Both the position numbers and the translations under genes were made by a program. This document shows, piece after piece, positions 1 through 25,991 of a stretch of 30,503 nucleotides of DNA. Each line of letters opens with the position of its first letter. Positions within the stretch are counted from its first letter, which is position 1. Source of the stretch: a virus. Below the pieces are notes generated by a model. The model was not told the origin of the DNA. It ran no database searches and was given only the letters and a program-made list of their open reading frames with translations. The stretch is from the IMG/VR virus record IMGVR_UViG_3300017763_000113, positions 1 to 30,503 of that record; one strand, given 5' to 3'.

Positions 1-737
1 ATGTAGATGGTGAGATTAAGGCAGGAACTGGTTGTGTTCCAGATACGGATTTGGGTGCTTACTTAGGATCTAGTACTGAAAGATGGACTGCTGCTTGGAT
101 TGATAATATCGGTATTGGAACAGGAGCTGGTGCATTAATTGCCTCTCACGTAGGTGATCTTTCTATCAGTTGCAATGAATCTACTGGAATTGTATCAGTA
201 TCTACAGATATTAATGTTTCTGGTGTTGTCACTGCAACAGCATTCTATGGTGATGGATCAAATCTAACTGGTATTGTTGCTGGTGGTGGAAGTGGAACTG
301 GATACTTTGATAACAACCAGACTAATGCTGGTATACATACAACAGCAGCTCATGTTGGTCTCGGAACTACCAATCCAAGAACACCTCTACAAGTTGAAGA
401 AGTCTATGGTGTTTATACCGACTATGGATCATTCACAGCAGTTGCAGGTGTTACAACTATAGGTGATGCTTCTTGGGTGATTGCAACGGATGACTTTAAA
501 ACTGCAGAATATACACTGTACTTCAAATATAATGATAACATCCAATCACAGAAAGTTCTATTGATGAACGATGGGACAACTGCATATTCTCAAGAGTATG
601 CGATTATGTATAATAATGACCTTCTAGTTTCGGTAGGTGCTACTGTTAATTCTGGAACTTGTGAATTACAATGGACTCCAGAACCAGGAGTAAGTGGTAT
701 AGTCACATATAGAGTAGTAAGGGAGACAATGCTCTGA
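1..737 (+). CDS. Phage tail fibre-like structural protein, 3' part (5' end outside window)
   Basis: The reading frame is open from base 3 to the TGA at 735-737, so the gene starts upstream of the window; an internal TTG at 51 is probably not the start. The visible ~244 residues are rich in Gly, Thr, Ser and Val. They contain the segment VTATAFYGDGSNLTGI, a repeat type typical of cyanophage fibre and baseplate-associated proteins that also occurs in the gene at 4981. The last ~120 residues look like a compact beta-rich C-terminal domain (around TTIGDASWVIATDDFKTAEY) ending in RVVRETML. The stop codon shares its final A with the ATG of the protease gene (TGATG), suggesting translational coupling. 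A virion structural role is inferred from composition and neighbours; the exact fibre is unknown. Confidence 0.75.
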   Translation, partial: VDGEIKAGTGCVPDTDLGAYLGSSTERWTAAWIDNIGIGTGAGALIASHVGDLSISCNESTGIVSVSTDINVSGVVTATAFYGDGSNLTGIVAGGGSGTGYFDNNQTNAGIHTTAAHVGLGTTNPRTPLQVEEVYGVYTDYGSFTAVAGVTTIGDASWVIATDDFKTAEYTLYFKYNDNIQSQKVLLMNDGTTAYSQEYAIMYNNDLLVSVGATVNSGTCELQWTPEPGVSGIVTYRVVRETML

Positions 738-3700: not shown

Positions 3701-4963
3701 CATGAAGGTCTTGATGGTACTTATGGAAATCCTGGTGGTGATTTGAGAAACTGGGACATTAGTATTCCTGGTATTGCAAGAACAGATAATGTCTACTTTA
3801 GATTGTATATGCCAAATAATAGTGGAACAATTTATGATAACTATGGTATTTTAAGTGTCTCATTTATTGATGAAGGCACGGAATATACTGATAGTACAGT
3901 TACATTAACACCCAATGCACTGGAGTCTAATCCATCGGGCATCACAACAGCAACAGCAAATGTTTGGATCAATAAAAATATAACCGATATTGAACTAACT
4001 GATGGTGGTTCTGGATATGGTGGAACATATGCATTATCAATGTCAGGTGGAAATCCAACTTCACCAGGATCTGGTCAAGCAGTTGCAGATGGAAATTTAT
4101 ACTATGATGGTTATGTTGGTATGGTGAGATACTATAAAGGTAGACCATTCATTCAAGATGAAGTCAATCAACATTATGAAGAGCAAATTGCAAGATTTGA
4201 TCCAAGTAAGAAACCATCAATATCTTTTGGAAACTCAGATCCTAGTACCGATGCATCACTTGCTGATATAACTACAACTGGACTTGTAATGCACATTGAT
4301 GGTCCAACTAAATTTGATACTGATTTAAGTGGTAATGGCAATGTACCAACTTATTATAGTGATAATCCATATAATGGACTATCATATCTTAATTTTCAAG
4401 GAACTACCAATACTTCTGGTGGTGGATTACTTAGTGGTGTGAACATATCTGGAGGTTCCTTTGCAATGGAAGCATGGATTTATCTTCTAGGAAATCCTAA
4501 TTCTGGCACAAATGGACAGATTGTATCTCAAGATGATGGTGGTAATGATGGGCAGGGATGGCAATGGAGAATAAGTGATGCTCCAGATTATCAACAAGAT
4601 TTTGTATATTTTACTTCTTCATCAAGAGGTTCTGCAGTTGATCTCTCAGCAGCACCAACTCCAATTCCTTTAAATAAATGGAGTCACGTTGCAGTTACAT
4701 ATGATGGAACTGATATTAGAATGTACTTGAATGGTGTTCAAGATTTTATCCACACACCAGCATCTTCACTTTATGCAAGCAGTACTCAGATAGGAATTGG
4801 AAGATATGGTGGCACCGCTTTTGCTAGCAGTTATAGATTAAATGCTAGATATGGTGCTGTCCGTCTTTACAATCAGTTCTTAACTGGTGATCAAATCAAA
4901 TCACACTATGATTTACAAAAGTATCGTTTCATCCCTCAATCTCTCACTTTATCATACGAATAA
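737..4963 (+). CDS. Subtilisin-like serine protease fused to two LamG/concanavalin-like domains
   Basis: This 1408-residue protein carries a full S8 (subtilase) catalytic set: Asp180 in IMDTGIRWDHPEF, His255 in SWHGSHVGGTAAG, the oxyanion Asn404 in CSAGNSDH, and Ser515 in GTSMAAPNVTG. Residues ~10-95 resemble an I9-type inhibitory propeptide, ending in RQHPKVEWVEES, so the enzyme may be autoprocessed. Residues ~605-785 and ~1180-1400 look like LamG/concanavalin A-like sugar- or protein-binding folds (NTWNHVVLTRTSNKIDFYLN and KWSHVAVTYDGTDIRMYLNG). Between them lie Gly-rich segments of the GSGY type (~790-855 and ~1083-1110), common in marine phage structural proteins. No signal peptide is visible. 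The start has GGGAGA at 721-726 upstream and overlaps the preceding stop. Neighbours suggest a virion-borne enzyme acting at the host surface or in virion maturation; this is inference. Confidence 0.9.
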   Translation: MHTEVHSESGRVIVISDIADNESQSFTVAIRDPADWQEMHDYIINENDLDGIPNRRIDCTAEMPFSTKRAVYQISVEEAEVLRQHPKVEWVEESSTYNPTCLEQRKYDEKFDRHADKFRFKDTSIRHLRAAGTPGSDLDFTQWGLHRHGYKNDPFGSETNATADIKYQFTGKNVDVVIMDTGIRWDHPEFLKPGVTTFVDKNSTRVRDILIHGASEYGIDWEAEGLIPAGQSTYSNYTVANVLESSTFGNPGSWHGSHVGGTAAGNQFGAAFEANIWSIACVDRSDVGWAEPSDGFDYIKVWHKNKPINPETGKRNPTIVNCSWGHRQFIRTDLSSEATFRGVSYGDGGDFYRNEAYDAIYYLDYTTSVYKGFTTRRVSGQTIMNELLDDPDCQGVVFICSAGNSDHKQDTIGGIDYNNRFTSGSLYYSTAGYDSYFHRGGTPAVGHEGAADAVISVAALSEYYSNSQETLDSYTNRGPRTDISAAGGEILSPWDAGYDDPRDTSFHNNYLQGTSMAAPNVTGVLALYLQSRPDATRVDARNWLFDHGSIVAPLRDSEPDFTDSSYWGSSTALRNTIPRVLFNPFANNERVSIVPGVEQIIKENLVMELDGEKEEIVDNIWRDTSRNGSNNLATLDPGVDYFGDRYSYQFNGNAKASIANNSDFQSIGEFTIELWYNQHTHSLSNVYPTVIFGSWNALEVDDNEFAIYQQPDGTLTYELAGGSANSGITSTHQTTPQLNTWNHVVLTRTSNKIDFYLNKEKTTYQGIYSPNITCTLEARVGTDNSTGDFINRVTGISAGSGYETVPTVNVVNPGGATGATFVASLSTQGTFKRFEVTSGGSGYTYPPVVTLGGGMADVGATAAITAGVVTSISLDGIVYDTTNSDDIFQFGSGTSIASNGSGNGEQGGFDIGETHLRFGDSDGGIRAVVVNPVDATDFDTIRIYAIRGDDFNGGELPEGDSGDESLRLSYNIGAGVTDSWTDAGIIIWHEGLDGTYGNPGGDLRNWDISIPGIARTDNVYFRLYMPNNSGTIYDNYGILSVSFIDEGTEYTDSTVTLTPNALESNPSGITTATANVWINKNITDIELTDGGSGYGGTYALSMSGGNPTSPGSGQAVADGNLYYDGYVGMVRYYKGRPFIQDEVNQHYEEQIARFDPSKKPSISFGNSDPSTDASLADITTTGLVMHIDGPTKFDTDLSGNGNVPTYYSDNPYNGLSYLNFQGTTNTSGGGLLSGVNISGGSFAMEAWIYLLGNPNSGTNGQIVSQDDGGNDGQGWQWRISDAPDYQQDFVYFTSSSRGSAVDLSAAPTPIPLNKWSHVAVTYDGTDIRMYLNGVQDFIHTPASSLYASSTQIGIGRYGGTAFASSYRLNARYGAVRLYNQFLTGDQIKSHYDLQKYRFIPQSLTLSYE

Positions 4964-4980: not shown

Positions 4981-7590
4981 ATGGCCAATAAGGATTTTGG
5001 TGTAAAGAAGATAGAACTTATTGGTTCATCTGGCACCCCAAATTTAACTAGTCCAACTAACCTAAACTTAAACGCAAATACTGTTGCGATTAGTACGGAT
5101 GTCACGATCGGAGGTAAAGTTCAATCAGATGTCATTGTTGGTAGTGGATATTCAGTAGGTATTGGTAGTACACAACCACAGCAAGCACTTGATGTTAGTG
5201 GAACAATTCGTGCTACTGCTTTTGTAACTCCTGATGGTCCCATTGGTGCTGGTGGAGGTGGTGGTGGTGTAACTGGTGTAACAATCAGAGAAGAAGGATC
5301 TGTCGTCGGTGTTGCAAATAGTATTACTGATATTGATTTTGTCAGTAGTAATTTAACAGCAACTGCATCTGGTGCTGATGCCACAATCACATTATCAGAT
5401 ACACCATCATTCACTTCAGCAGTAGTAGGATCTGCAGTTAATATTAATTCTACTGGTGTCAATGTTGTTGGTACTGTAACTGCAACATCATTTTCTGGTG
5501 ATGGTTCACAACTTACCAACATTGGTGCAGGAACAACTAGTGAATGGACTTTGGGTGCAAATGGTAGTAGTGATTATACATTCACTGGTCCTGGTCTAAC
5601 TGGTGCAGAGAATGATCCCACACTCTACTTAGTAAGAGGTCAGTCATATAGATTTACTAATAACATGGGTGCTCACCCATTCAGAATTCAGAGCACTGTA
5701 AACGGATCTACTGGAAGTCAATATAATGATGGTATCACAAATAATGATGTAAGCAACGGAACTCTAGTATGGGATGTTCAGTTTGATACTCCTGACACTC
5801 TATATTATCAGTGTACTGCTCATGGTGGTATGGGTGGTCCAATCTTTATTGTTGGAGAATCACCCAATAAAGAACTTACACAACTTACAGTCACTGGTGT
5901 TGCTACAATTACCAATGGTAGAATTCAATCGGGTGGAGCATCCAACCTAAGATTTGGTAACATTGCTGCTGGATCTGGTAGTGGTAGAAATATTGCAATT
6001 GGTGATCAGGTTCTAGGTTCACTCTCTAGTGGTAACGGTAGAAATATTGGTCTTGGTGAACTTTCACTTAATAATGTAAATTCTGGTGGATATAACATTG
6101 GTCTTGGTATCAAAGCAGGACAATTAATCACAAATGGTCAATATAATGTTGTTATTGGGGGATATGATGGTAACTCTGGTAATCTAGACATCAGAACTCT
6201 ATCTAATCGAGTTATTATTGCTGACGGTGAAGGAAATATTAGACAATATATCAACAACTCTGGAAGAACTGGTATCAATACAACAGTTCTCACAGACATG
6301 CTAACTGTTGGTGGTAGTGTTACTGCCACATCTTACTCTGGTGCTGCTTCTGGACTTACAGGATTGCCTGCTGGGCAACTCACAGGAGCACTACCTGCAC
6401 TCGATGGTTCTGCACTTACTGGTGTATCTGCTGTTGGATCTGGTATTGAAGTCAAGGATAGTGGTTCAGCAGTTGGTGCTGCTGCAACCATTGATTTCTC
6501 TACTGGTTTAGATGTATCTCCAGTATCTGCTGGTGTTGTCACAATCACAGCATCTATTCCTGGTATCAGCACAACAGGAACTTCTGGTTTTAGTGATATT
6601 ACTAGTACTGGTATTGATGTAACTGGACATACTGAGACTGATAGTTTAAGAGTTTCTGGTGTTTCTACATTCGATGATGTAAAAGCAACAAGGGTGTCTA
6701 CTGGTGACGGTTTCAGTTCTGGATTGAAGGTTGGTGTAGGTGATGATCTTTCAATATATGAAACTAGTAGTGATGTTGGGATGAGCTATGGTGGTACTGG
6801 ACTACTATTTGTGCGTACTGGTGGAAACTATCAAATTGATAAAAATGGTTCAAAGAGAATTTATGCATACTCTTCTGGTGAAGTAGACCTTTATTATAAC
6901 AATTTCTTAAGACTTCAAACAACAACTAACGGAATTACTGTTTATGGTAATGTAACACTTTCTGGTTCTGGTTCAGAGTTTGTTGGTTCTGGTGCTGGTC
7001 TCACAAGTATTCCTTCAGGTGAACTTACTGGTTCATTACCTGCTATTGATGGATCTGCACTACTCAACGTTAATGCAACTGGTGATGGTGTTGTTGTTGA
7101 AAACAGTGGGTCAAACGTTGGTTCAGCAAAGACTATCAACTTTGATACTGGTCTAGATGTTAGTTACGGTTCTGGTATTGCTACTGTTACTGCATCTGGT
7201 GGTTCACTACAAAACAGAACAATAGTTTCTGCATCAACAACATCTATTGCAGACAATGCTGTAGGTCTTGTAACAGTTACTGGATTTAAGTCTTATGCAC
7301 TGATGAAAATTGGTCTATCTACAGCAGGTTGGATTAGAATATATACTGATAGTGAATCTAGAACTGCTGATTCTAGTAGAAGTGTTGGGGAAGATCCAGC
7401 AGCAGGAAGTGGAGTTATTGCTGAAGTTGTAACGACAGGAATCTCTACTGAACAAAAAATCTCTCCATTCACAATGGGTGGAAACATGAATGATCCAGTT
7501 GATGCCACGATTTATATGGCAGTCACAAATCTATCTGGAAGCACACAATCAATCAATGCAAATCTAACCATTCTTCAACTAGAGGCATAA
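4981..7590 (+). CDS. Tail fibre-like structural protein with a cupredoxin-like domain
   Basis: This 869-residue protein is a mosaic of fibre modules. Residues ~60-75 and ~165-180 hold VSGTIRATAF and VTATSFSGDGSQLTNI segments. Residues ~188-293 form a cupredoxin-like domain with His232 (GAHPFRI) and Cys278-x2-His281-x2-Met284 (YYQCTAHGGMGG), the type-1 copper ligand set with amicyanin-like spacing. Next come left-handed-roll-like repeats with NIAIG, NIGLG, NIGLG and NVVIG units (~335-395). Two ~85-residue units, around G458 and G673, repeat each other (GLTGLPAGQLTGALPALDGSAL and GLTSIPSGELTGSLPAIDGSAL types). The C-terminal ~120 residues form a beta domain (KSYALMKIGLSTAGWIRIYT) that I recognise from other marine phage structural proteins. 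A late promoter lies just upstream. Copper binding is a prediction. Confidence 0.8.
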   Translation: MANKDFGVKKIELIGSSGTPNLTSPTNLNLNANTVAISTDVTIGGKVQSDVIVGSGYSVGIGSTQPQQALDVSGTIRATAFVTPDGPIGAGGGGGGVTGVTIREEGSVVGVANSITDIDFVSSNLTATASGADATITLSDTPSFTSAVVGSAVNINSTGVNVVGTVTATSFSGDGSQLTNIGAGTTSEWTLGANGSSDYTFTGPGLTGAENDPTLYLVRGQSYRFTNNMGAHPFRIQSTVNGSTGSQYNDGITNNDVSNGTLVWDVQFDTPDTLYYQCTAHGGMGGPIFIVGESPNKELTQLTVTGVATITNGRIQSGGASNLRFGNIAAGSGSGRNIAIGDQVLGSLSSGNGRNIGLGELSLNNVNSGGYNIGLGIKAGQLITNGQYNVVIGGYDGNSGNLDIRTLSNRVIIADGEGNIRQYINNSGRTGINTTVLTDMLTVGGSVTATSYSGAASGLTGLPAGQLTGALPALDGSALTGVSAVGSGIEVKDSGSAVGAAATIDFSTGLDVSPVSAGVVTITASIPGISTTGTSGFSDITSTGIDVTGHTETDSLRVSGVSTFDDVKATRVSTGDGFSSGLKVGVGDDLSIYETSSDVGMSYGGTGLLFVRTGGNYQIDKNGSKRIYAYSSGEVDLYYNNFLRLQTTTNGITVYGNVTLSGSGSEFVGSGAGLTSIPSGELTGSLPAIDGSALLNVNATGDGVVVENSGSNVGSAKTINFDTGLDVSYGSGIATVTASGGSLQNRTIVSASTTSIADNAVGLVTVTGFKSYALMKIGLSTAGWIRIYTDSESRTADSSRSVGEDPAAGSGVIAEVVTTGISTEQKISPFTMGGNMNDPVDATIYMAVTNLSGSTQSINANLTILQLEA

Positions 7591-7593
7591 TAA

Positions 7594-9546
7594 ATGGCAA
7601 TTACTACAAATACAGTTTCTATTGCAGGAACTTGGACAAAAGTAAATCACTTAGAACAACTTGGTGAAGCTCTTGAGTGGTTAGGTTGGCACAGTATTGC
7701 TGGTTCTGGATCTTCAGAAACGGGTAAAGTTTGTGGACTTCAAACATTTTATGGTGGTGGATCATTACCTAATGCAGATCCCAAACAACCAGAATATCAA
7801 GATGTATTTCCTATAGCAACAACTGGTATTGGAACTGGAGCATCATTCTTGGTGCAAAGATGTCCACTCGACAACGACAACGGTTCAGGTGTCAGAGTTG
7901 TTGATGCGATTATGGCTAATCGTCCTGGATACGGATACACTGGTGGAGAAGTTGTAACACTTTCTGCTGAAGATATTGGTGGTTCTTCAAATGGTGCAAC
8001 AAATATTACAATTCCAGTTGTTATTGAATCTGATATAACTGGTGGTAATTCTTATATTTGTACATTTACAGGATCCAGCCCTATGACCATGGAAGCATAT
8101 GGTAGAAATGGATTTGTTTCTGGATCATGCACTAACACCTATGTTGAAATTCAAGAAGGTGACACTATAACCTTTGATAATAACACTGGTGCATGGAATA
8201 TGGCACTTTGTTGGAGAAATCATCCAATCCAAAATAATTTATTTCATGAATATAGCAACGAAAACAGAGTTTTTAATGCCAATGTATTCAATAACGGAGG
8301 AACGGGAACATTTACTCCAATCTCTGGTCAAGCAGGAAAGTATTTCTTACGTGAAGATAGCACAGATATTAGAGATATTGTCAATAATGATGTAGGTAAT
8401 ATAATTGTAACTGCAGCAACTTCTGGTATTTCTACAGTTGGTTTTGGTACAACAAACAGTTGGTATCATGTTGACTATTCAAATACATCATACCCATGGG
8501 CAGTTTGGAGACAAAGTTTTGACGAGAATAAAAAGTTTGGTGCAACCTATAGATTATTTGGAATTAATAATAACTTCCTTGGCATTACTCAATGGGTTGG
8601 TAGTGGATGGCAACCTTCAACAAGATCGCAATATGTTTATTTCAGTGGTGGTCATGGATATGGTATGAGATTTGCTGGTGCAAATGGATTAGATAATGGT
8701 TACGGAGGTCATATGTATGAGACATATGCTACATTTGAAAGTGGACTTACTGGAAATAATCTTACTGCCCATACAAATGCAGGTTTATCCCATGGTGGAA
8801 CTGCAAACAAAGCCCTTGACTTAAACATTTATAGATCAGGAATTGATACCGATTTTGCAGTATTTTCATATTATGAACCAGATGTATCTGCAACAAGATG
8901 GGACGGAAGAAGTGTCAATGCATGGTTCTTCCATAACTTCTCACAGAATGTTTGGGATCTAGATGAATGCTTTACATCTGGAACAACTTTTATTAGTCCT
9001 GGTTCACAAGGTGGTGTAAATCCATACATTCGTATCCAAACACAAGTTGGTGGAACTCACCGTGTAGGTTATGATGATAATCCTTCAAGACGTTCTGGTG
9101 AATTTGGTTATTCATCTCTTGATAATGGTTATGATTTTAATAATTTTATTACTACTGATTACTATTCTGAGATAGTTCCAGCAAGATCTTCTGCTACCAT
9201 CAATCCTGCTGATGAAATGAGAATTTACCATAGATCAACAAATTCTTCATTAAATCAGAAAGATTTGAGTACTGGTTCAGGTGGAACAACAGGACAAGAT
9301 ACCGTAGGTGTTGATTTTAATCCAGTCATTAAAGGAATTCCAATTAGTGGTAAGATGGTTCCTTGTCCATATTATATTCCAGACGATTTTGTGTTGATTG
9401 ATTTCTTCTATGCTTCCAATGACGAATTCATCGACCAGGGAGATACAATTACAATTAGTGGTAGTGAAGTATACACAATAATTGTTGCATCATATTATCA
9501 AGGATCAGGAACAACAGGTATTGCATTCTGTGCGAGGACAACCTAA
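7594..9546 (+). CDS. Phage structural protein, first copy of a duplicated fibre gene
   Basis: This 650-residue protein is paralogous to the product at 9805-11724. Both begin MAI(T/S)T-TVSIAGTWTK, share GIGTGASF and NRPGYGYTGGE near residues 75-120, and end with a related tail (IPDDFVLIDFFY, GDTITISGSEVYTII, FCAR(T/S)T). A segment at ~150-275 has the layout of a cupredoxin-like beta sandwich (EGDTITFDNNTG, then SGQAGKYFLRED) but shows no recognisable copper ligands. AGAGG at 7581-7585 is a good ribosome site, 8 bp before the ATG. The stop overlaps the next start (TAATG). Composition, neighbours and late-region position indicate a virion or fibre protein; I do not recognise an exact T4 counterpart. 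Confidence 0.75.
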   Translation: MAITTNTVSIAGTWTKVNHLEQLGEALEWLGWHSIAGSGSSETGKVCGLQTFYGGGSLPNADPKQPEYQDVFPIATTGIGTGASFLVQRCPLDNDNGSGVRVVDAIMANRPGYGYTGGEVVTLSAEDIGGSSNGATNITIPVVIESDITGGNSYICTFTGSSPMTMEAYGRNGFVSGSCTNTYVEIQEGDTITFDNNTGAWNMALCWRNHPIQNNLFHEYSNENRVFNANVFNNGGTGTFTPISGQAGKYFLREDSTDIRDIVNNDVGNIIVTAATSGISTVGFGTTNSWYHVDYSNTSYPWAVWRQSFDENKKFGATYRLFGINNNFLGITQWVGSGWQPSTRSQYVYFSGGHGYGMRFAGANGLDNGYGGHMYETYATFESGLTGNNLTAHTNAGLSHGGTANKALDLNIYRSGIDTDFAVFSYYEPDVSATRWDGRSVNAWFFHNFSQNVWDLDECFTSGTTFISPGSQGGVNPYIRIQTQVGGTHRVGYDDNPSRRSGEFGYSSLDNGYDFNNFITTDYYSEIVPARSSATINPADEMRIYHRSTNSSLNQKDLSTGSGGTTGQDTVGVDFNPVIKGIPISGKMVPCPYYIPDDFVLIDFFYASNDEFIDQGDTITISGSEVYTIIVASYYQGSGTTGIAFCARTT

Positions 9547-16931: not shown

Positions 16932-17600
16932 ATGTCAAATTTTTCATTATATTGTGATGTTCCAGAAGGGCATAATGAATATCTAATTCCCATGTTTTCT
17001 GTCCCACTTCTGCATCTCAAAGTGGAAGAATGGGATGAAAAGAGAAAAAGTCTTCTCGATATGTATTCAAGAAGAAGACAAGAAAGTGATAAATTTAAGA
17101 TTGCCACAGGTTCTAATTCTTCTCTAGATGTGGAAACTGATTATCACCACAATCATGACACTGGAGAGACTTACGATAGAGAAATAACAGATATTCTCAA
17201 ATCAGAATTAGAAACTTTTTCAGATACTTTTGAATGTGCTGCTGAAGTATGTACTTCATGGTTTGAAAGAGCAACTAATAGTAAGTTTCATCAGGTCCAT
17301 AATCATGGATCTATGGGATTTAGTGCTGTATTATTCATTCAGTTTAGTCCTGAGTATCATACTCCCACAGTATTTTTGAATCCAAACCTGGCAGATAATG
17401 AGGTTTGTAATTGCGTACCACCAGGAATTAGGGAAGGTTCACTTATATTTTTCCCTTCTTATGTTCTTCATTATACTGCACCGAATGAGAGTGAGAAGGA
17501 TAGAATCGTCCTCTCATTTAATATAAATGTAGAATACGAGAGTTTTTCTTTCGCAGATGAAGACGATAGTGATGGTGAATACTTCACAAAAGATGTCTAA
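16932..17600 (+). CDS. 2-oxoglutarate/Fe(II)-dependent oxygenase-like protein
   Basis: This 222-residue protein fits the phage and bacterial family of putative 2OG-Fe(II) oxygenases related to Pfam 2OG-FeII_Oxy_5. The metal-site segment is FHQVHNHGSMGFSAVLF (His120, His123, His125). The distal part, GSLIFFPSYVLHYTAPNES, holds His180, followed by Arg191 in DRIVLSFNI as likely 2-oxoglutarate ligand. The family typically shows an H-x-H pair rather than HxD here, so the exact ligands are uncertain. Such enzymes use O2, Fe(II) and 2-oxoglutarate to hydroxylate proteins, nucleotides or small molecules. It is first in a run of four oxygenase genes and its end overlaps the next start by 8 bp. The C-terminus is acidic (ADEDDSDGEY). 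Confidence 0.75.
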   Translation: MSNFSLYCDVPEGHNEYLIPMFSVPLLHLKVEEWDEKRKSLLDMYSRRRQESDKFKIATGSNSSLDVETDYHHNHDTGETYDREITDILKSELETFSDTFECAAEVCTSWFERATNSKFHQVHNHGSMGFSAVLFIQFSPEYHTPTVFLNPNLADNEVCNCVPPGIREGSLIFFPSYVLHYTAPNESEKDRIVLSFNINVEYESFSFADEDDSDGEYFTKDV

Positions 17601-18156
17601 ATCATTTATTCTTCGCAATTTTTTATTCAAAGATGATGTAAAAGCACTCAATCAATGGACTCTAGATAATTGTCATCTAGATTTTTTTGAAGATGCCTGC
17701 ATGGATCCAGATAATCATGGAACACGATTCACAACTCGATTCCCTAATGAAGAGATAGCACCTAATTTAAACTATCCAAAGTCTGCACATACTGTACGGC
17801 AAAGAATAATCAATTATTTTCATCTAGAAGGTTACAAAAGTCCACCATCCTACAGTCATGGAATTGTAAATGGCATTGGATATGATGGTGGCAGAATAGA
17901 GAATCATATTGACCCTACATATTATCCAAATACTAAAACAGTTCACTTTAATGCTATTACTCAACAAGCACATAAGGGTGGACATACGATCATTGGTGGT
18001 GTAGAATATACAGATATAAATTCTACAGATCTTTTGATATATCAAGTCTCTGAGATTCACCATGAAGTAACACCAACACAAGGTGATACTGCCAGAATAC
18101 TATGGGTTTTTGGATTTTGTTTAGATGATGAAAAAGTACAGGAGATATTCTTATGA
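17593..18156 (+). CDS. 2-oxoglutarate/Fe(II)-dependent oxygenase
   Basis: This 187-residue protein has a double-stranded beta-helix core. The HxD motif is His105-Ile-Asp107 (ENHIDPTY), the distal His is 156 or 157 (EIHHEVTP) and the 2-oxoglutarate-binding Arg168 lies 11 residues on (TARILWVFGF). Spacing fits the prolyl-4-hydroxylase-like superfamily. I chose ATG 17593 (MSKSFILRNFLF) rather than the longer frame from 17557: it aligns with the usual family start, and the longer option would overlap the previous gene much more. The stop overlaps the next start (ATGA). The substrate is unknown; the tail-collar fibres in the same block are candidates, by inference. Confidence 0.8.
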   Translation: MSKSFILRNFLFKDDVKALNQWTLDNCHLDFFEDACMDPDNHGTRFTTRFPNEEIAPNLNYPKSAHTVRQRIINYFHLEGYKSPPSYSHGIVNGIGYDGGRIENHIDPTYYPNTKTVHFNAITQQAHKGGHTIIGGVEYTDINSTDLLIYQVSEIHHEVTPTQGDTARILWVFGFCLDDEKVQEIFL

Positions 18157-18890
18157 AAGATTTTGCCAACGATGAATCATTATTTGAAACTAATGATTTT
18201 TCTAATATGAATATCATTGAGTTTTGTGATGGTGATAAGGTTTCCAATTTTTATTGGATGGATAATTTTTATAAAAGACCATACGATGTCTATGAATATC
18301 TTTTATCTGTTGAACCACCATTATGGAAAATGGGAGAAGATTGGGAACTTGGCAGAGGTACACTCAACACAAAAAACTTTGAGGATCGTAGACATATGAT
18401 GAAGCATCCTGGTATGTCTTCACTATACAGTAAGATCTCGGGTATTTGTGACCAAGAATCCGCAGATGTGGATGAAATTGTAACTAATTTTTCAAGATTC
18501 TCACGAATTGATGATAACCCATACGAAACTCATTACTGGTGGCCTCACCATGACGGAGGATACAATGGTATATGTTACTTAAGCACGAATGATGAAATTG
18601 GAACTAACTTATATAAACCATTGGTAACAGATAATCCAGACTTATTACCTCTAGATGAAAATGATGGTGTTAGAGATGAACATGCAATACCATGGACACC
18701 AAAAAACTTATGGGAAACTGTAGTTAGTTTTCGTTCAAAATTCAATAGATTTGCAATGTTTGAAGGATCATATTATTATCACAGTATGAACTTAACTGGT
18801 GAACATTATTTTGGTGATCACTATAGTGATGCCGAATACAGAATTAATCAAGTATTTTTTATGATGAATGAAACTGAGGAACAAGATTGA
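18153..18890 (+). CDS. 2-oxoglutarate/Fe(II)-dependent oxygenase-like protein
   Basis: This 245-residue protein starts on an ATGA overlap with the preceding oxygenase. The HxD motif is His132-His133-Asp134 (WWPHHDGGYNG), the distal site is His210 in SYYYHSMN, and Arg230 (YRINQVFF) is the likely 2-oxoglutarate ligand. The insert between these motifs (~150-195, LYKPLVTDNPDLLPL, IPWTPKNLWE) is longer than in its neighbours. The layout resembles a phage-enriched 2OG-oxygenase family annotated as domain of unknown function in databases. It probably hydroxylates a protein or small molecule; no substrate is indicated. Confidence 0.75.
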   Translation: MKDFANDESLFETNDFSNMNIIEFCDGDKVSNFYWMDNFYKRPYDVYEYLLSVEPPLWKMGEDWELGRGTLNTKNFEDRRHMMKHPGMSSLYSKISGICDQESADVDEIVTNFSRFSRIDDNPYETHYWWPHHDGGYNGICYLSTNDEIGTNLYKPLVTDNPDLLPLDENDGVRDEHAIPWTPKNLWETVVSFRSKFNRFAMFEGSYYYHSMNLTGEHYFGDHYSDAEYRINQVFFMMNETEEQD

Positions 18891-18891
18891 C

Positions 18892-19548
18892 ATGCACAGA
18901 TTCAGAGATGAAATTACTCCAAACGATGATAATTTCTTAGAGATACCTATTAGTGACAAGAATCGTGAAGATCTTTTCATTACACCATTGTATACCTTTA
19001 CTCTAGACATTGATAACGGACCTCTGATTAGAGAATGTTTAGATTTGCGGGAAAGATTTCCCAATGGAGTAAAAAAATCCAATTTTGGTGAAGGTTGGCA
19101 GAGTCAAGTCTATGAATTGCCCACAATCAAAAGAACAACAACTCCTGCTATTCAAAATTTAGCAAGAAATGCTATCGATCTGACAAATGAAATATTGGAA
19201 GACTTTGGTGCAACTTATAGAGTAGATGATAATCAAATTGGATGGTGGATGAATATTAACAAGGGAATGGGATATAATGTTCATCACACTCATCCTGGAT
19301 GTACTGTTATTGGACTTTATTATCCAAAAATTCCTAGTGACCTAAATGAACAGGAAGGTAAACTCACTCTAATCAGAACTGATCCATCAAATCATAATGC
19401 TGCGTTTGCTGATGTTGCCAATAATTGTGAATGGGTAATTGAACCTGAGGAAAATGTTTTTTACTTGATGCCATCTACAGTTGCACATTATGTGACACCA
19501 CACTTTAGTGAAGAGGAGAGAATATCTATTGCATTTAATATTGGATAA
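18892..19548 (+). CDS. 2-oxoglutarate/Fe(II)-dependent oxygenase-like protein (2OG-FeII_Oxy_5 type)
   Basis: This 218-residue protein shows the family signature GWWMNINKGMGYNVHHTHPG with His131, His132 and His134, then VIGLYYPK. The distal site is His199 in STVAHYVTPH, with Arg210 in EERISIAFNIG. These are hallmark elements of putative 2OG-Fe(II) oxygenases widespread in cyanophages. I chose ATG 18892 because it follows the previous stop by one base and has GAGGA at 18876-18880; a start at 18868 inside the previous gene is possible but adds only 8 residues. The stop codon lies within the late promoter octamer for the collar fibres, so the oxygenases and fibres are directly linked. Confidence 0.78.
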   Translation: MHRFRDEITPNDDNFLEIPISDKNREDLFITPLYTFTLDIDNGPLIRECLDLRERFPNGVKKSNFGEGWQSQVYELPTIKRTTTPAIQNLARNAIDLTNEILEDFGATYRVDDNQIGWWMNINKGMGYNVHHTHPGCTVIGLYYPKIPSDLNEQEGKLTLIRTDPSNHNAAFADVANNCEWVIEPEENVFYLMPSTVAHYVTPHFSEEERISIAFNIG

Positions 19549-19585: not shown

Positions 19586-20122
19586 ATGTCTATTCTGCAA
19601 ACGAGTGGTATTCAATTTGGACTTGATAATACCGTTCTTAATTCTAAATATGGCATTATTCCTCAGAATAGTGTTGCAGTATTTTATCAAGCATCGGCAC
19701 CTAGTGGATGGTCTCAAGTAACTACTCATAATAATAAAGCACTTAGAGTTGTATCTGGAACTGGTGGTGGGTTCGGTTCTGGTGGATCTAATGGTCCTGG
19801 TGGACAACCATTTTCTACTATATTTCCTACATCAACACGTCCAATTAGTGGTACTGTAACTTCTGCTGGTTCAGTAGGAAACACAACATTAACAGTGCAG
19901 CAAATTCCTGGACATACTCATAATGCAGGTTCTCAGGTTAATGTAAGTCCTGGATCTCCTAGTGTTGGAGGACGTGCCGTAAATACTTCAGCACCAGCAA
20001 CATCTCCAACGGGTGGAGGTAACTCACATACTCACCCATTTGTTGGTGCCTCATCACCTTATAGTGGAAGTATTGACCTTAGAGTTAAATATATTGATGT
20101 TATCATCTGTCGTTTTAGTTGA
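19586..20122 (+). CDS. Phage tail collar fibre protein
   Basis: This 178-residue protein has a tail collar domain (residues ~22-65: YGIIPQNSVAVFYQASAPSGW, then LRVVSGTGGG). A central Thr-rich stretch ends in QQIPGHTHNAGS. The C-terminus holds GGGNSHTHPF and ends DLRVKYIDVIICRFS. The two HTH motifs (110-112 and 148-150) resemble the HxH metal-binding motifs of T4 short- and long-fibre tips, where His residues hold metal ions along the trimer axis; metal binding here is an inference. Between the motifs lies a ~35-residue linker rich in Ser, Pro and Gly. It is paralogous to the next gene, which has a huge insertion in the same linker. It follows a late promoter. Confidence 0.82.
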   Translation: MSILQTSGIQFGLDNTVLNSKYGIIPQNSVAVFYQASAPSGWSQVTTHNNKALRVVSGTGGGFGSGGSNGPGGQPFSTIFPTSTRPISGTVTSAGSVGNTTLTVQQIPGHTHNAGSQVNVSPGSPSVGGRAVNTSAPATSPTGGGNSHTHPFVGASSPYSGSIDLRVKYIDVIICRFS

Positions 20123-20132
20123 GGTATAATAT

Positions 20133-21395
20133 ATGTCTATTTTAAGAGCAGACGGGATCCAGTTCGGAAATGGTACTCAATTAAATACGTTTTACGGTAT
20201 TGTTCCACAATCATCTACGATGCTGTTTTATCAATCAGCAGCACCAACTGGGTGGACTAAAGAAACATCAGCAAACGATCAAGCACTTAGAGTTGTAGAT
20301 GGAACGGGTGGAGGATCTTCTGGACAGAATAGTTTCAGCACAACATTTGATGATGGTGGTGCTACTTCAGTTGTAACTTCAACCCTATTGGGTAGTATTG
20401 GACCAACAACACTAACAACACAACAAATTCCAGCACATACCCATAATACTGGATCAAATCCAAATTCCTATAGATCATCTGGTGGTTCTTCACCATTTAG
20501 AACAACTAATAGGCAACCACGTGGATATAATATTAGAGCAACAACTAGAACACAAATTAATAATCGTGTTCAGATTAATTTTAGACAACCTAGACAGGTA
20601 AGACAACCTCGTAACTATAGACAACCACGAAGGCAGAGAGTTCCACTCAGAAACAGACAACCAAGAAACTTTAGAGTAAGATATCCTACACGTTCTAGAA
20701 GACCATTTAGTTTTAGAGTTCCTGTTCCATTCCGTGTTCCTGTAAGATCACGAAGACCAATATCTCAACGAAATCCTGGTGGAAGATGGAGAAACTCTAT
20801 TGGTCAATCTTGGAGAGCAGGTGGAAGAAATAATGATAGAACACCAAGAAGAAGATGGGGTCGGAGAAGAAGAAATGATAGGATTCCAAGAAGAGCAGAT
20901 AGAAGACAACCTAGAGTAAGTTGGTGGAGACAGAGAAGACAGTTTAGAAGACCTGTATCTTTTAGACAGAGAAGATCTTTCCGTCAACCTCGTAACTTTA
21001 GACAACCTAGAAATGCAAGACAGAGGAGATCATTTAGGAGGAGGCAACCAAGATCATTCAGAGTGAGGTATTCATTCAGGCAGAGAAGATCTTTCCGAGT
21101 GAATATTCCGTTCAGAGTAGCAGTTCCTCAGAGAAATCCTTCATCTTTTAGACAACCAAGAACATATCGTACACCTCAAAGATATCCACAGACTACAAGT
21201 GTGAGGGTAACTCAAAGGGTTCTAACTCCTGGTGGTACTATTAGGAAGAATAATACTCAAGGACCAGCAACAAGATCAACTGGTGGTGGTCAATCACATA
21301 CTCATCCATTTACTGGTAGTGAAGTTACTTTCTCTGCTGCACTATCACCACTTAGAGTTCAATACATTGATGTCATTACTTGCAGTTTAGATTAA
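20133..21395 (+). CDS. Tail collar fibre protein with a large Arg-rich (FRQP-type) insertion
   Basis: Residues 1-110 match the paralogue at 19586 closely (MSIL-x-x-x-GIQFG, YGIVPQSSTMLFYQSAAPTGW, LRVVDGTGGG, QQIPAHTHNTGS). Residues 373-420 match its end (GGGQSHTHPF, LRVQYIDVITCSLD). Between lies a ~262-residue segment (111-372) that my hand count gives as about 81 Arg and only 3 Asp/Glu, built from irregular units such as FRQPRN, FRVPV, QRRSFR and RSRRP. It would be an elongated, strongly positive shaft or coat. HTH motifs flank the insertion. GAGG at 20121-20124 is the ribosome site. In related cyanophage fibres the same place often holds YRQP-type repeats with far less Arg; this version seems extreme. 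Confidence 0.82.
   Translation: MSILRADGIQFGNGTQLNTFYGIVPQSSTMLFYQSAAPTGWTKETSANDQALRVVDGTGGGSSGQNSFSTTFDDGGATSVVTSTLLGSIGPTTLTTQQIPAHTHNTGSNPNSYRSSGGSSPFRTTNRQPRGYNIRATTRTQINNRVQINFRQPRQVRQPRNYRQPRRQRVPLRNRQPRNFRVRYPTRSRRPFSFRVPVPFRVPVRSRRPISQRNPGGRWRNSIGQSWRAGGRNNDRTPRRRWGRRRRNDRIPRRADRRQPRVSWWRQRRQFRRPVSFRQRRSFRQPRNFRQPRNARQRRSFRRRQPRSFRVRYSFRQRRSFRVNIPFRVAVPQRNPSSFRQPRTYRTPQRYPQTTSVRVTQRVLTPGGTIRKNNTQGPATRSTGGGQSHTHPFTGSEVTFSAALSPLRVQYIDVITCSLD
20463..21248 (+). repeat. Purine-rich repetitive DNA encoding the Arg-rich fibre insertion
   Basis: This stretch of the collar fibre gene is dominated by AGA and CGT codons and near-repeated words such as AGACAACC, CAACCTCG and AGAAGATCTTTCCG. Short imperfect repeats of 18-27 nt encode FRQPRN-like units, so it could expand or contract by slippage or recombination. 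Confidence 0.7.
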
Positions 21396-21433: not shown

Positions 21434-21820
21434 ATGGCAAAACAGACTGGTAAATGGTGTCCACTAATTCGTAAGGATTGTGTAGAACATAAATGTGCAT
21501 GGTATACGCATATTGCGGGTGTAGATCCTAATACTGGAAATCCAGTAGATCATTGGTCTTGTGCCATTCAATGGATGCCAATGCTAATGATTGAAAATAG
21601 TCAGCAACAACGTTCTACAAGTTCTGCTGTTGAGTCTTTCCGTAATGAAATGACTAAAGCACACGAAACTAATCAGAATATGTTGGATGCTGTCGGTAAC
21701 ATGTATCTTGATATGTGTGAAGATCAGGGTGTCAATGTTTCTGAATACATTGAACAGATTGATGGCATAGATAATGAAGAAGAAAACTTACTACCCGAAT
21801 CCGAAGAGGAGAAAAAATGA
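21434..21820 (+). CDS. Conserved phage protein with a Cys/His-rich N-terminus
   Basis: This 128-residue protein has a possible metal-binding cluster in its first 50 residues: WCPLIRKDCVEHKCAWYTHI followed by DHWSCAIQW, giving four Cys plus nearby His. A zinc or iron-sulphur site is possible but not proven. The rest is helical (SSAVESFRNEMTKAHETNQNMLDAVGN) with a very acidic C-terminus (NEEENLLPESEEEKK). I recognise the pattern as a conserved cyanophage protein of unknown function. It has its own late promoter and overlaps the next gene by ATGA, so it is coexpressed with the coiled-coil protein. Confidence 0.75.
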   Translation: MAKQTGKWCPLIRKDCVEHKCAWYTHIAGVDPNTGNPVDHWSCAIQWMPMLMIENSQQQRSTSSAVESFRNEMTKAHETNQNMLDAVGNMYLDMCEDQGVNVSEYIEQIDGIDNEEENLLPESEEEKK

Positions 21821-23151
21821 AAATTTCTATTATCCCAGAAGATAAAAAAATTATCGTAGATGGTAAAACCGTGGATCTTGAGGATAATGCACCTTGGGAT
21901 TTTGATGATGAACCCATCCATGCAATTCAGTGGAAGGATGATAGAGGTGAATTGGAATATGAAGATATTATTGGTGAAGAACCAGCACCAAATAAAATTT
22001 TTGGTGTAGATGAATTTGATACTATTGTTCAACCATATCTAGATTACTTTAATACATTTTTGGATTCATACGAGAAATCAGAACTTGAGTCTGCATTACA
22101 AGAAGAGCAAAATATTGCTGATCAGATTGAAGAATTGAATATTGATAAACTTGAGAAAGAAGCACAACTTGTTATCATCGAAGACCTCAAGAGACAGAAT
22201 AGAGAACTTCGTGATGAGAGAGAAGATTTGTATGAGGAAAAGAGTAAGTCAGATCAAGCAGCAGTATATGACAAGCAAGTTGCTTTAATTGAACTCGAAC
22301 GTGAAAAAGCAGCACGTGAATCTGAAAAGGCAGGTTTAGAATCACAGAAAGCAGATGAGTTTTTTGAGAAGAAGTCTTTAGAACTTGCTAAAAAGTATGA
22401 TGAACTCTTTCATGATTTTGAAAAGGAAAAAGATGCTTTTGTAGAAGAAAGGAAAGAGTATCAAGAATTGCTGCAAATGGAACGTGATAAGATTGAGAGG
22501 GAAGATGATCTTTCTATGAAGCAACTTGCTCTCGAAGATAAAGAACGTGAAACAAGAGAGGAAATGATTGCCAAGGTTAGGTTGATCGAAGAAGAACAAC
22601 TTGACATTGCTAAGGCAGAACTTGAATTGCAGAAACAGGCAGTTGATATTATCCGTTTGGAGAATCTTGAAGTTCAAGAACAAATCAATGCTGCTAGAGA
22701 TGTAATTAAAGTAAATCTTGAAAAGCAGGAAGATGAGTTTGAGAGGAGAAAGGATCAAGAACTAGAAATTATCATGAGATCTCATGAAGATCTAATGAAT
22801 AAAATGTCTCAGGAAGAGGCATTTGATGAACTAGATGATGCTGTAGAACGTGAATTTGATAAAGCAGAAGTTGAGTATAAAGAATTTCAAAGAGAAAAAC
22901 TCAAGCAATCTAATAGCAGTATTCATGCTGCTGGTCAAGAGAAAATCATTAGAGATAGTATTGAACGTGAAGAAATTCAGGGTGGTGCTGACAAATCTAT
23001 CGAAGATATCCTAACACTTATGGACGGTATTGACCCAGAAGAACTTTATACTGTACTAACTGATGATGAGAGAGGAGAAAATTCTTTCCCTGTAGATAAG
23101 GCAGTTAAGTGGTTTGCTGCCCTAAAAGAAGTTCTAGATAAAAATGATTGA
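21817..23151 (+). CDS. Long coiled-coil phage protein, function unknown
   Basis: This 444-residue protein has three parts. Residues 1-60 (MKISIIPEDKKIIVDGKTVDLED, then PIHAIQWKDDRGELEYED) match a small domain common in cyanophage proteins near fibre genes. Residues ~80-370 are highly charged, Glu/Lys-rich and heptad-like (ELNIDKLEKEAQLVIIEDLK; DEREDLYEEKSKSDQ), predicting a long coiled coil. Residues ~385-444 (SIEDILTLMDGIDPEELYTVL to WFAALKEVLDKND) form a helical end. It could be a fibre-assembly scaffold or a rod-like virion part. No membrane segment or enzyme motif was seen. It overlaps the Cys/His-rich gene and precedes three more oxygenase genes. Confidence 0.75.
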   Translation: MKISIIPEDKKIIVDGKTVDLEDNAPWDFDDEPIHAIQWKDDRGELEYEDIIGEEPAPNKIFGVDEFDTIVQPYLDYFNTFLDSYEKSELESALQEEQNIADQIEELNIDKLEKEAQLVIIEDLKRQNRELRDEREDLYEEKSKSDQAAVYDKQVALIELEREKAARESEKAGLESQKADEFFEKKSLELAKKYDELFHDFEKEKDAFVEERKEYQELLQMERDKIEREDDLSMKQLALEDKERETREEMIAKVRLIEEEQLDIAKAELELQKQAVDIIRLENLEVQEQINAARDVIKVNLEKQEDEFERRKDQELEIIMRSHEDLMNKMSQEEAFDELDDAVEREFDKAEVEYKEFQREKLKQSNSSIHAAGQEKIIRDSIEREEIQGGADKSIEDILTLMDGIDPEELYTVLTDDERGENSFPVDKAVKWFAALKEVLDKND

Positions 23152-23160
23152 TATATTGAA

Positions 23161-24558
23161 ATGAATAATGAATTGTTGAAGAACAACTATATCGTTGTTC
23201 CTAATTTTATCGATCCAGATCATGCCTCACGATTAGAAAAAGAGTTCTTTGTTACTGATGAAATCTTTGATTTTAGTGGTGATGAACAGGCACCAAACTC
23301 ATCAGCAGTATATGATTATCTCCCAGCATTAGAACTTCTGGCAAACAAAACTTCGGAAGTTTCTAAACTAATTGGTGAAACTGTTCTCCCAACTTATGTT
23401 TATTCTAGAATATATCGAAACGGAAGTATTCTTCATAGACACACTGATCGTCCTGGATGTGAAATATCATTAACATTGCACTTAGGTAGTGATAAACCTT
23501 GGGCAATTTGGATTGAAACACCAGAAGGAAAGAATAGATCAGTTAACTTGAATCCTGGTGATGCTATGCTATACTTGGGATGTATTGCTCCACATTGGAG
23601 AGATCAATTTGAGGGTGAAGAGTACACTCAATTTTTCTTACATTATGTAAGAAGTCGTGGTATGTGTAGTCCTGCATACTTTGATAAAAACAAATTTAGA
23701 GACATTGACACTGAAGACTTATTACGGGAGTACAAACAAATGGGAAAGTTTACTAATGTAAATGAGATGACAATACTTCCAAAGAAGTATAGAGAAAAAC
23801 AAGAAAGAAACGATGATAATAAGGTTGAATTTATACTAGATTCTAATAACGATACTGATACTTTCTTTGACTTTGACGATGTAGTCATTGCTAATGATAA
23901 GTATAAAAAGTTCTTGACTAAAAAAGATACTCCAGAATTGATTAATGAACCTAAGGTAGAGAATAAAGCAAAACCATCGGGCAAATTGTCATCTAAACCT
24001 ATTGCTGATTTTGTATGGCATGGTCAAGAAGTTGTTGATCCTGAACTATGTGATAAAATCCTAGATGAGTATGCAAATACAAACTATTGGGAAGCAACAT
24101 TAACTGGAAGTGGTCATGATCCAGATGCACGAAGGTGTGAACAAATTTGTATTTCTGAGCAATCAATCATTGCTGAAGATAATTCTGACACTAGGAAACA
24201 GTTAGATGATCAAATGTTTGAGGTTGTTCAAAACTTGATCGGACTTTATCAAGAAGCACATCCAGAGTTTGAACTAGAGATTCAAGAGGATAGTGGTTAT
24301 GAACTGCTCAAATATGAAGAGGGTGACTTTTATATTGAGCATACAGATTCGTTCAAAGAACAACCTAGAGCATTAACAGTGATTGTGTCAATGAATAATG
24401 CATATGAAGGTGGAGAAGTTGCTTTATTCAATCGTGAACTAGTATATAAACTTGATGTTGGTGATGTAATTATGTTCCCATCTAATTTTATGTACCCGCA
24501 TGAAATTATGCCAGTTACTCAAGGAACAAGATTCTCTATCATTACTTGGGTTGTATGA
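23161..24558 (+). CDS. Fused protein with two 2-oxoglutarate/Fe(II) oxygenase domains
   Basis: This 465-residue protein contains two complete oxygenase domains. The N-terminal one (~1-185) has His94-Thr-Asp96 (ILHRHTDRPGCE) and distal His145 (APHWRDQF). The C-terminal one (~285-465) has His394-Thr-Asp396 (FYIEHTDSF), distal His447 (MYPHEIMP) and Arg457 (GTRFSIITW), with the LTVIVSMNN-YEGGEVAL strand typical of prolyl-4-hydroxylase-like enzymes. An acidic, Lys-rich linker (~200-285) joins them. Both HxD pairs are intact, so both halves may be active. The stop overlaps the next start (ATGA). Substrate unknown; the two active sites could process repeats on one long protein, which is an inference. 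Confidence 0.85.
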   Translation: MNNELLKNNYIVVPNFIDPDHASRLEKEFFVTDEIFDFSGDEQAPNSSAVYDYLPALELLANKTSEVSKLIGETVLPTYVYSRIYRNGSILHRHTDRPGCEISLTLHLGSDKPWAIWIETPEGKNRSVNLNPGDAMLYLGCIAPHWRDQFEGEEYTQFFLHYVRSRGMCSPAYFDKNKFRDIDTEDLLREYKQMGKFTNVNEMTILPKKYREKQERNDDNKVEFILDSNNDTDTFFDFDDVVIANDKYKKFLTKKDTPELINEPKVENKAKPSGKLSSKPIADFVWHGQEVVDPELCDKILDEYANTNYWEATLTGSGHDPDARRCEQICISEQSIIAEDNSDTRKQLDDQMFEVVQNLIGLYQEAHPEFELEIQEDSGYELLKYEEGDFYIEHTDSFKEQPRALTVIVSMNNAYEGGEVALFNRELVYKLDVGDVIMFPSNFMYPHEIMPVTQGTRFSIITWVV

Positions 24559-25205
24559 AACATAATGATTTTATTGGTCATTATGAAAATGTAATGGATG
24601 TTGATGCTTGTGATGCTGTAATTTCACTCTTCGATTCCAATTGGCAACATCCTGATGATCCAAATAACAAATTAAGAACTGGTCAGGGAAATACTGAAAC
24701 TGAAAGAGGTCATTTAAATAGGCACGACTATCAGTGGTATCTGGATCCTAGTCCATCATTTGATCTTATTGTCAGAACTGTAGAGTATTGTTGGGAACAG
24801 TATAAACAAACTTTTTGGGTTTCTAATTATGTTCATATCAACTTTGATGAGGTAAAACTTCAAAAGACTTTTCCCAGAGGTGGATTTCATGACTGGCATT
24901 GTGAGATTACTGATTTAGGAGCAGTTGACAGATGTGTTGCTTGGATGTTATATTTGAATGACATTCCCGAAGGTGAGGGTGAAACAGAGTTCCTTTGGCA
25001 AGGTCGTAGAGTACAACCAAAAGCAGGGACGATGTTAATTTGGCCCGCATTTTACACACATGTTCATCGTGGAAACACTGTATATTCAAAGAGTAAATAC
25101 ATTGCAACAGGTTGGGGAAACTATTTTTGTAATGATAGTCAACTGGAAGATTATTTTGAACATGACGACAATCTAAAACTATTCACAGACAGGAAACGAG
25201 ACTAA
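24555..25205 (+). CDS. 2-oxoglutarate/Fe(II)-dependent oxygenase with HxE variant site
   Basis: This 216-residue protein is placed from ATG 24555, which overlaps the preceding stop; the TTG at 24546 would add only 3 residues. The active-site segment is GGFHDWHCEI, in which His115-Cys-Glu117 forms an HxE variant of the usual HxD. The distal site is FYTHVHRGN (His169 or His171). LYLNDIPEGEGETEFLWQGRRVQPKAGTML is the strand and turn pattern of prolyl-4-hydroxylase-like proteins. Glu can replace Asp as iron ligand in some members, so activity remains likely but should be tested. It belongs to the second oxygenase group after the coiled-coil gene. Confidence 0.8.
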   Translation: MKHNDFIGHYENVMDVDACDAVISLFDSNWQHPDDPNNKLRTGQGNTETERGHLNRHDYQWYLDPSPSFDLIVRTVEYCWEQYKQTFWVSNYVHINFDEVKLQKTFPRGGFHDWHCEITDLGAVDRCVAWMLYLNDIPEGEGETEFLWQGRRVQPKAGTMLIWPAFYTHVHRGNTVYSKSKYIATGWGNYFCNDSQLEDYFEHDDNLKLFTDRKRD

Positions 25206-25414
25206 TGGCACTATCTGACCAAGTAAAAGTAGAAATAGATTCTGCTCAAACACATCTTCGTGAAGCATTGGCATTTGCTGCAAGAAATGAGAAACCGTTT
25301 TTTGTTAAAGCATTGGGTGAAATGATTCATGCTTTAGATACTCTATCATCAGCAGATGATTTTATGGATACTATGCAGGAATTGTTGGAAAAGAATGATG
25401 AATTACCAGATTAA
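25205..25414 (+). CDS. Small helical phage protein of unknown function
   Basis: This 69-residue protein begins on the stop codon of the previous gene (TAATG) and overlaps the start of the next oxygenase by about 17 bp. It is acidic and helical (SDQVKVEIDSAQTHLREALAFA, then DDFMDTMQELLEKNDELPD), with no Cys or membrane segment. Its place between two oxygenase genes suggests co-translation, perhaps as a partner, but there is no direct evidence. Confidence 0.65.
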   Translation: MALSDQVKVEIDSAQTHLREALAFAARNEKPFFVKALGEMIHALDTLSSADDFMDTMQELLEKNDELPD

Positions 25415-25991
25415 AACTGAACCTTTCTCTCATGTTATCATTGAAGAAACATTTGATGAAGAACAATATGATATGATTTGGAGAGAACTTGATTTTCTTT
25501 TGAATAAGTTCAAGGATCCTGAAGGATACATGGCAGCAAAAGATGATGATGGAAACTATCTAACAACAGCAAAAGGTTTATCATTAGATGCAGTGTATAA
25601 TAATGAATATAGAAATATTTCTGACATCTTAACTATTTGTCAGAAGATTTTTTTCAATGATGATAAGTTTTTTGATGATTTAGTGGAAAAGGATGATTAT
25701 TGGACGACATATAAAAGGTCTAGTGAAGATTGGACTAAAATCAGAAGATATTTTCCTGGAGATGGATATGACCCACACGCAGATACTTGGGTGAATGTGT
25801 TAGTAACCACAACACTTTGTCATAAGGAAGATGAGGGAGGAAATTTATATTTCCCAAGATATGATTATGAAATTCAAACGAGTAATAATAAGACTGTAAT
25901 TTTTCCTGGTTGGGTTGAACATTCTGTCACAGATGTGTTGGAGAATGACAGATATGCTATCACAAAGTTTATACACTGTGCCAGTAAGTGA
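25398..25991 (+). CDS. 2-oxoglutarate/Fe(II)-dependent oxygenase
   Basis: This 197-residue protein (start MNYQIKTEPFSHVIIEE) has His127-Ala-Asp129 in GYDPHADTW, distal His175 in WVEHSVTDV and Arg185 in DRYAITKFIH, a regular HxD-H-R set. ATG 25398, with GGAA 7 bp upstream, was preferred; ATG 25395 is an equal option, and the longer frame from 25356 encodes an unlikely Cys/Trp-rich leader. It is the last oxygenase of the block and the last gene before a sigma70-type promoter, so transcription units probably change here. Confidence 0.8.
   Translation: MNYQIKTEPFSHVIIEETFDEEQYDMIWRELDFLLNKFKDPEGYMAAKDDDGNYLTTAKGLSLDAVYNNEYRNISDILTICQKIFFNDDKFFDDLVEKDDYWTTYKRSSEDWTKIRRYFPGDGYDPHADTWVNVLVTTTLCHKEDEGGNLYFPRYDYEIQTSNNKTVIFPGWVEHSVTDVLENDRYAITKFIHCASK

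Follow-up and report, generated by a model that had tools for sequence, protein, structure and literature searches.

An arginine-rich hexapeptide-repeat insert in a collar-type tail fibre of a marine cyanophage, linked to a long acidic putative chaperone and to 2OG-Fe(II) oxygenase genes

In the present study, we analysed a 30.5 kb virus fragment (30,503 nucleotides, hereafter the window) which is syntenic with the Synechococcus phage S-SCSM1, a Kyanoviridae isolate. The source of the window is a marine cyanobacterial phage. The features in and around its tail fibre genes are as follows, with the insert as delimited below.

19586 to 20122, + strand: short collar fibre of 178 amino acids (aa), a paralogue that lacks the insert; 57% identity to both ends of the next protein
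20133 to 21395, + strand: tail fibre protein of the collar type, 420 aa with a net charge of +75; open reading frame (ORF) and translation, S-SCSM1 homology, 9qgo profile match
20436 to 20444, + strand: first HxH motif, H102-T-H104; His >90% conserved (alignment A3), aligned to 9qgo and 9nxk
20472 to 21224, + strand: Arg-rich hexad-repeat insert, residues about 114 to 364; alignment to collars without insert, composition, conservation
21297 to 21305, + strand: second HxH motif, H389-T-H391; His >90% conserved (alignment A3), aligned to 9qgo and 9nxk
21434 to 21820, + strand: conserved Cys-motif protein, 128 aa (CPLIxKxCxxxxCAWY); homologues in 28 of 28 loci with the insert and 36 of 37 without it
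21817 to 23151, + strand: acidic protein of 444 aa with a net charge of -65, the putative assembly chaperone of the tail fibre; homology to CRP-361 gp41 over its first 75 aa
22030 to 22911, + strand: predicted single helix of about 294 residues in this putative chaperone, residues 72 to 365; AlphaFold2

The larger fibre is 76% identical to the 'short tail fiber protein' SSCSM1_245 (421 aa) of S-SCSM1, a direct homologue in which the insert and the gene order are identical in kind. An initial annotation of the window had marked positions 20463 to 21248, that is residues 111 to 372 (262 codons), as a segment of about 81 Arg and 3 acidic residues with a net charge near +78 per chain. Our recount confirmed the ORF, the coordinates and the counts, with 81 Arg, 1 Lys, 3 Asp and 0 Glu giving a net charge of +79, and alignment to insert-less collars narrowed the insertion to residues about 114 to 364. 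The segment is low-complexity and Pro-rich, holds 11 Gly in its 262 residues and is composed of units such as SFRQPR and NFRQPR, with His absent from the hexad repeat. A period of 6 residues is its top periodicity (z 3.1), and the underlying DNA repeats are spaced 18 nt. Its Arg density reaches 27 per 60 residues, against 12 for the runner-up (the frame around the ORF at 29876) and 7 for the next among the long forward frames of the window. The two HTH motifs between which the segment had been placed are indeed His-Thr-His (HxH) motifs, at H102/H104 and H389/H391. The two collar fibres had also been described as paralogues sharing both ends almost fully; both ends do match, but at 57% identity 'almost fully' is too strong.

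Low-complexity repeats at 18-nt spacing could arise from a sequencing or frameshift artefact or from drifting repeat slippage, and variation of length by slippage among relatives had been expected. When related collar fibres were aligned, as the initial annotation had proposed, the segment was found to be exactly 262 aa long and gapless in the window and in all 10 distinct relatives, the S-SCSM1 isolate included; a second class, longer by about 75 aa, occurs only among distant relatives. In this alignment Arg is invariant in 72 of its 78 columns, and the Arg, Gln, Pro and Tyr positions are kept site by site with no indel. The codon varies in 53 of the 72 invariant-Arg columns, 20 columns mixing AGR with CGN, and pN/pS is lower in the insert (0.365) than at the two fibre ends (0.48 and 0.52). 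The other forward frames contain many stops, and the refuting outcomes named in the initial annotation, namely paired frameshifts or a low-Arg sequence kept by relatives in another frame, did not materialise. Since independent contigs and an isolate share the frame, the length and the Arg positions, an origin by slippage or frameshift was rejected, and we give an artefact of either kind practically no chance. The insert is real and under selection, and the original view, in which a collar-type fibre bears a conserved and highly cationic segment, is upheld.

A Pro-centred hexad, (F/Y)(R/Q)xPx(S/T/N), is mostly retained in homologous inserts. In distant inserts (L030, L034, L092, L172, L173, L174, L189, L282 and L290), the composition measured between the HxH motifs was 7-14% Pro and 11-29% Arg, and the Arg-richness of the present insert (about 31%) is the extreme of a continuum among homologous inserts. 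By the distance from one HxH motif to the other, the inserts fall into two length classes, about 279-297 aa and 353-381 aa. The second insert class (L174, L175 and L189, about 355-381 aa) is rich in Gln, Asn and Pro, has 13-19% Arg and a longer chaperone, and its hexad is weaker in the middle of the insert. In other marine phages, proteins of other architecture (L047, L061, L067 and L128) are built of similar hexads (NARQPNNARQP); they resemble the insert in their Pro/Arg hexads, few acidic residues and nearby 2OG genes, and differ from it in having no collar domain, no paired HxH and lower Arg. We read the insert as a member of a marine-phage class of Pro-centred hexapeptide repeats, of which many positions became Arg in this lineage. 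One of the hexad-repeat proteins (L061, positions 5006 to 7108, - strand) has at its end a self-processing domain of the Hint/intein-like type, for which the matches to PF14890 and PF01079 stay below curated cut-offs, and similar proteins were seen in L077, L094 and L156.

The fold of the fibre was approached through its family profile, which matches the solved structure of the trimeric tail fibre 9qgo (E 2.9e-6, residues 22 to 107, plus the second HxH region) and, weakly, 9nxk; the matches surround both HxH motifs. A Pfam search of the fibre gave no family, such as a collar domain, at E <= 1. By these profile matches and its paired HxH motifs, which are candidate metal sites, the protein is a collar fibre of the T4 gp12/gp37 type; it would probably form a trimer. 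In comparison with collars that lack it, the insert sits between the two motifs. In T4 gp37, LPS and OmpC are bound by the D11 needle, which is itself inserted in the collar domain D10 (PMC6957217), and since the present insert occupies the place corresponding to D11, an elongated needle at the fibre tip is its natural reading by analogy. The likeness to the distal tip of gp37 (D10 + D11) and to gp12 covers the collar-type end, the His metal motifs and the long tip insertion (PMC6957217). Unlike the gp37 needle, which coordinates seven irons along its length, the HxH motifs here only flank His-less, Pro-centred, Arg-rich hexads.

Two other roles of the segment have to be weighed at this point. 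A net charge of +79, nearly all of it from Arg, might suit a protamine-like segment that binds nucleic acid, or one that acts on host nucleic acid after entry, rather than an outer adhesin; given its place at a fibre tip, flanked by the two HxH motifs, and homologues that keep the hexad with far less Arg, this seems very improbable to us. It may also be proposed that the insert is disordered and forms a charged brush which raises affinity for the negative cell surface, the long chaperone only preventing aggregation. The low-complexity, Pro-rich composition would agree with a brush, as would the AlphaFold2 monomer model of the fibre (25 aligned sequences), in which pLDDT was 40 and no usable fold was obtained. 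However, conservation of Arg, Gln, Pro and Tyr site by site without any indel is unusual for a disordered brush, and we regard it as unlikely.

Two genes downstream of the fibre, an acidic, rod-like protein is encoded (21817 to 23151), which is absent from the initial annotation. Its first 75 aa are homologous to CRP-361 gp41 (35% identity, E 1e-11), which carries PF16778, a tail assembly chaperone domain, and the gene order of fibre, Cys-motif protein and chaperone is the same as in CRP-361 gp39-41. The protein thus resembles PF16778 chaperones in being encoded just after the fibre and in its N-terminal domain, and is unlike them in its acidic helix of about 300 aa and in having no PF16778 domain; a Pfam scan of the product gave no match, PF16778 included. 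The T4 gp37 and gp12 fibres are made with dedicated chaperones (PMC6957217), and gp27 of Alteromonas phage V22 is a precedent for a chaperone of this type being required by a marine myovirus (PMC7289586). AlphaFold2 predicted a small beta domain followed by one helix over residues 72 to 365, with pLDDT in ten-residue blocks of 61-96 over most of the helix and below 50 at its very end. A Foldseek search of this model against the PDB gave nothing below E 0.7. A coiled coil was considered for the rod and rejected; because the heptad period is not significant, the rod is named here a long helix only.

The length of the putative chaperone follows the state of the fibre. It is 431-502 aa in 28 of 28 insert loci with a readable chaperone and 87-297 aa in 37 of 37 loci without the insert. 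Since only about two gains or losses of the insert are placed on the chaperone tree, P values counted per locus overstate independence. By independent contrasts, chaperone length rises with insert length (r 0.46, P 0.018), and the net charge of the chaperone becomes more negative as that of the insert becomes more positive (r -0.47, P 0.016; raw r -0.84). Specific charge matching between insert and chaperone was nevertheless dropped, because the Cys-motif protein covaries in charge as well; a similar trend was seen in the oxygenase at 23161, with very few contrasts. As a remark on geometry only, half of the added insert, taken as an extended strand (about 414 A), would be similar in length to the helix (about 440 A). 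Some chaperones of loci without the insert are very acidic without a long extension, with charges of -54 to -59 in 213-214 aa (L202, positions 7450 to 8094, and similar proteins). The Cys-motif protein lies between fibre and chaperone in cyanophages and in a roseophage, has homologues in CRP-361, P-SSM2 and S-B05, and matched no family in a Pfam scan; it may be a metal-binding assembly factor.

The virion of S-SCSM1 offers a further view of these proteins. In the S-SCSM1 report, 45 proteins are detected by mass spectrometry (PMC9602691), and the '(virion protein)' note in the S-SCSM1 record appears to mark this detection. In that record SSCSM1_244, the homologue of the short collar fibre, carries the note. 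The Arg-rich SSCSM1_245 carries none, which is weak evidence because this protein has only six usable tryptic peptides. The chaperone SSCSM1_247 is also without the note, despite 26 tryptic peptides of 7-30 aa, and this fits a chaperone which is not packaged. The searched portion of the S-SCSM1 text does not mention the Arg-rich fibre SSCSM1_245 (PMC9602691), and a literature search on Arg-rich short tail fibres found no paper matching all aspects.

The same gene cluster carries 2OG-Fe(II) oxygenases. Seven 2OG-type genes were found in the window, five of them linked to the insert. They are listed below, where paired counts refer to loci with the insert (of 28) and without it (of 37), several of the latter showing a 6 kb flank.

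16932 to 17600, + strand: 2OG-Fe(II) oxygenase (PF13759, Pfam), insert-linked; 17 of 28 against 0 of 37
17557 to 18156, + strand: 2OG-Fe(II) oxygenase-like, insert-linked; H117xD119, H169 and R180 conserved, S-SCSM1 name; 17 of 28 against 0 of 37
18153 to 18890, + strand: 2OG-Fe(II) oxygenase-like, insert-linked; H132xD134, H210 and R230 conserved, S-SCSM1 name; 24 of 28 against 0 of 37, and reverse scan
18868 to 19548, + strand: 2OG-Fe(II) oxygenase (PF13759, Pfam), insert-linked; 25 of 28 against 0 of 37
23161 to 24558, + strand: two-domain 2OG-Fe(II) oxygenase (C-terminal PF13640, Pfam), not insert-specific; 25 of 28 and 28 of 37
24546 to 25205, + strand: 2OG-Fe(II) oxygenase (PF13640, Pfam), insert-linked; 20 of 28 against 1 of 37; PDB 3itq/5hv0
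25356 to 25991, + strand: 2OG-Fe(II) oxygenase (PF13640, Pfam); close relatives have homologues in this position

A Pfam scan of the 17557 and 18153 products gave nothing above cut-off, and their identity comes from the S-SCSM1 annotation and from motifs. Among the cassette enzymes checked, HxD/HxE, the distal His and the basic residue are conserved in 17557, 18153 and 24546, and the PF13759 members 16932 and 18868 have HxH in place of HxD. The 24546 enzyme is weakly like bacterial prolyl 4-hydroxylases (PDB 3itq/5hv0, E 0.01). PDB sequence searches with the profile of the 18153 product and with the 23161 oxygenase gave no match.

The linkage was also examined from the side of the enzymes. In a reverse scan with the 18153 family, wherever enough readable DNA followed an 18153-18868 pair, an insert-bearing collar was present about 1.2-1.3 kb downstream of it; in one case (L349) the pattern search missed the insert, which was read by eye (net +87). 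Scanning with the 17557 oxygenase only, close relatives alone were returned. Distant relatives of the 18153 family occur elsewhere in other cyanophages, some of them near fibre genes without hexads. In a DNA pattern scan, 2OG homologues were present at 23 of 28 hexad-repeat loci, which include collar loci of the window's kind, against 1 of 91 other loci, mostly unrelated phages and thus a loose control; of the five hexad loci that showed no 2OG homologue, several end close to the repeat. At L128, two of the downstream genes encode PF13640 and PF13759 oxygenases. The insert is linked to oxygenases as well as to the long chaperone. It had been suggested that the insert is the substrate of the neighbouring oxygenases, and this gains from the five genes that track it and from the 2OG genes near non-collar hexad proteins; as to the residue modified, Pro or some other constant position is a likelier target than Arg, because Arg varies between 11 and 29% while Pro and the hexad stay.

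A parallel exists in collagen-like phage fibres, such as those of P-SSM2 with piuC, in which a Pro-containing repeat fibre has close by a gene named for PiuC, a 2OG hydroxylase. Unlike those fibres, the insert of the window has no Gly-X-Y and repeats the hexad with period 6. A literature search on hydroxylation of phage fibres found nothing relevant. The S-SCSM1 report counts 24 2OG oxygenase genes in that phage and describes the role of such genes in T4-like cyanophages as not studied (PMC9602691).

The oxygenases may instead act on host metabolism or on other virion proteins and be merely carried along in the lineage, the fibre being a cationic receptor needle that is built with the acidic rod and never hydroxylated. 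Such a reading could draw on the few independent events (about two on the chaperone tree), on the 23161 oxygenase, which is common at loci without the insert, and on the effect on host 2-oxoglutarate and nitrogen metabolism predicted by the S-SCSM1 authors (PMC9602691). We consider it rather doubtful, as the oxygenase genes have overlapping reading frames and form one cluster with the fibre, the linkage is tight both from the insert loci and from the reverse scan, and a second hexad architecture is also found near 2OG genes.

We therefore prefer, with about as much confidence as doubt, a needle-like, probably hydroxylated, receptor-contacting fibre tip that is folded with a dedicated rod chaperone. 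In this proposal, the long insertion would extend the collar tip between the two HxH motifs, at the place of the T4 gp37 receptor-binding needle, and three chains would form an elongated cationic needle. The helix of about 294 residues in the acidic chaperone would hold or shield the insert during folding and trimerisation, and the chaperone would not be retained in the virion. The co-inherited 2OG oxygenases would hydroxylate repeat residues, with Pro as the first candidate, and the finished needle may touch the anionic cyanobacterial envelope. These findings suggest a chemically modified, chaperone-built fibre of a previously undescribed kind. It is possible, with chances a little short of even, that such fibres constitute a separate marine-phage class, with Pro-centred hexads which co-encoded 2OG oxygenases hydroxylate and with a dedicated long-helix acidic chaperone for assembly, a counterpart of collagen maturation with an unrelated repeat, here about 31% Arg. 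An oxygenase set tied to one fibre insert provides a concrete candidate substrate for cyanophage 2OG genes. If true, the proposal would illustrate the folding, in a phage, of a fibre tip that bears +79 charges per chain, and would add a new repeat type for receptor-binding needles. Elsewhere in the structural region of the window, positions 737 to 4963 encode a 1408-aa protein, possibly a fibre-borne protease, in which a subtilase domain (PF00082, E 3e-27) is combined with LamG/ConA-like lectin domains at the C-terminus.
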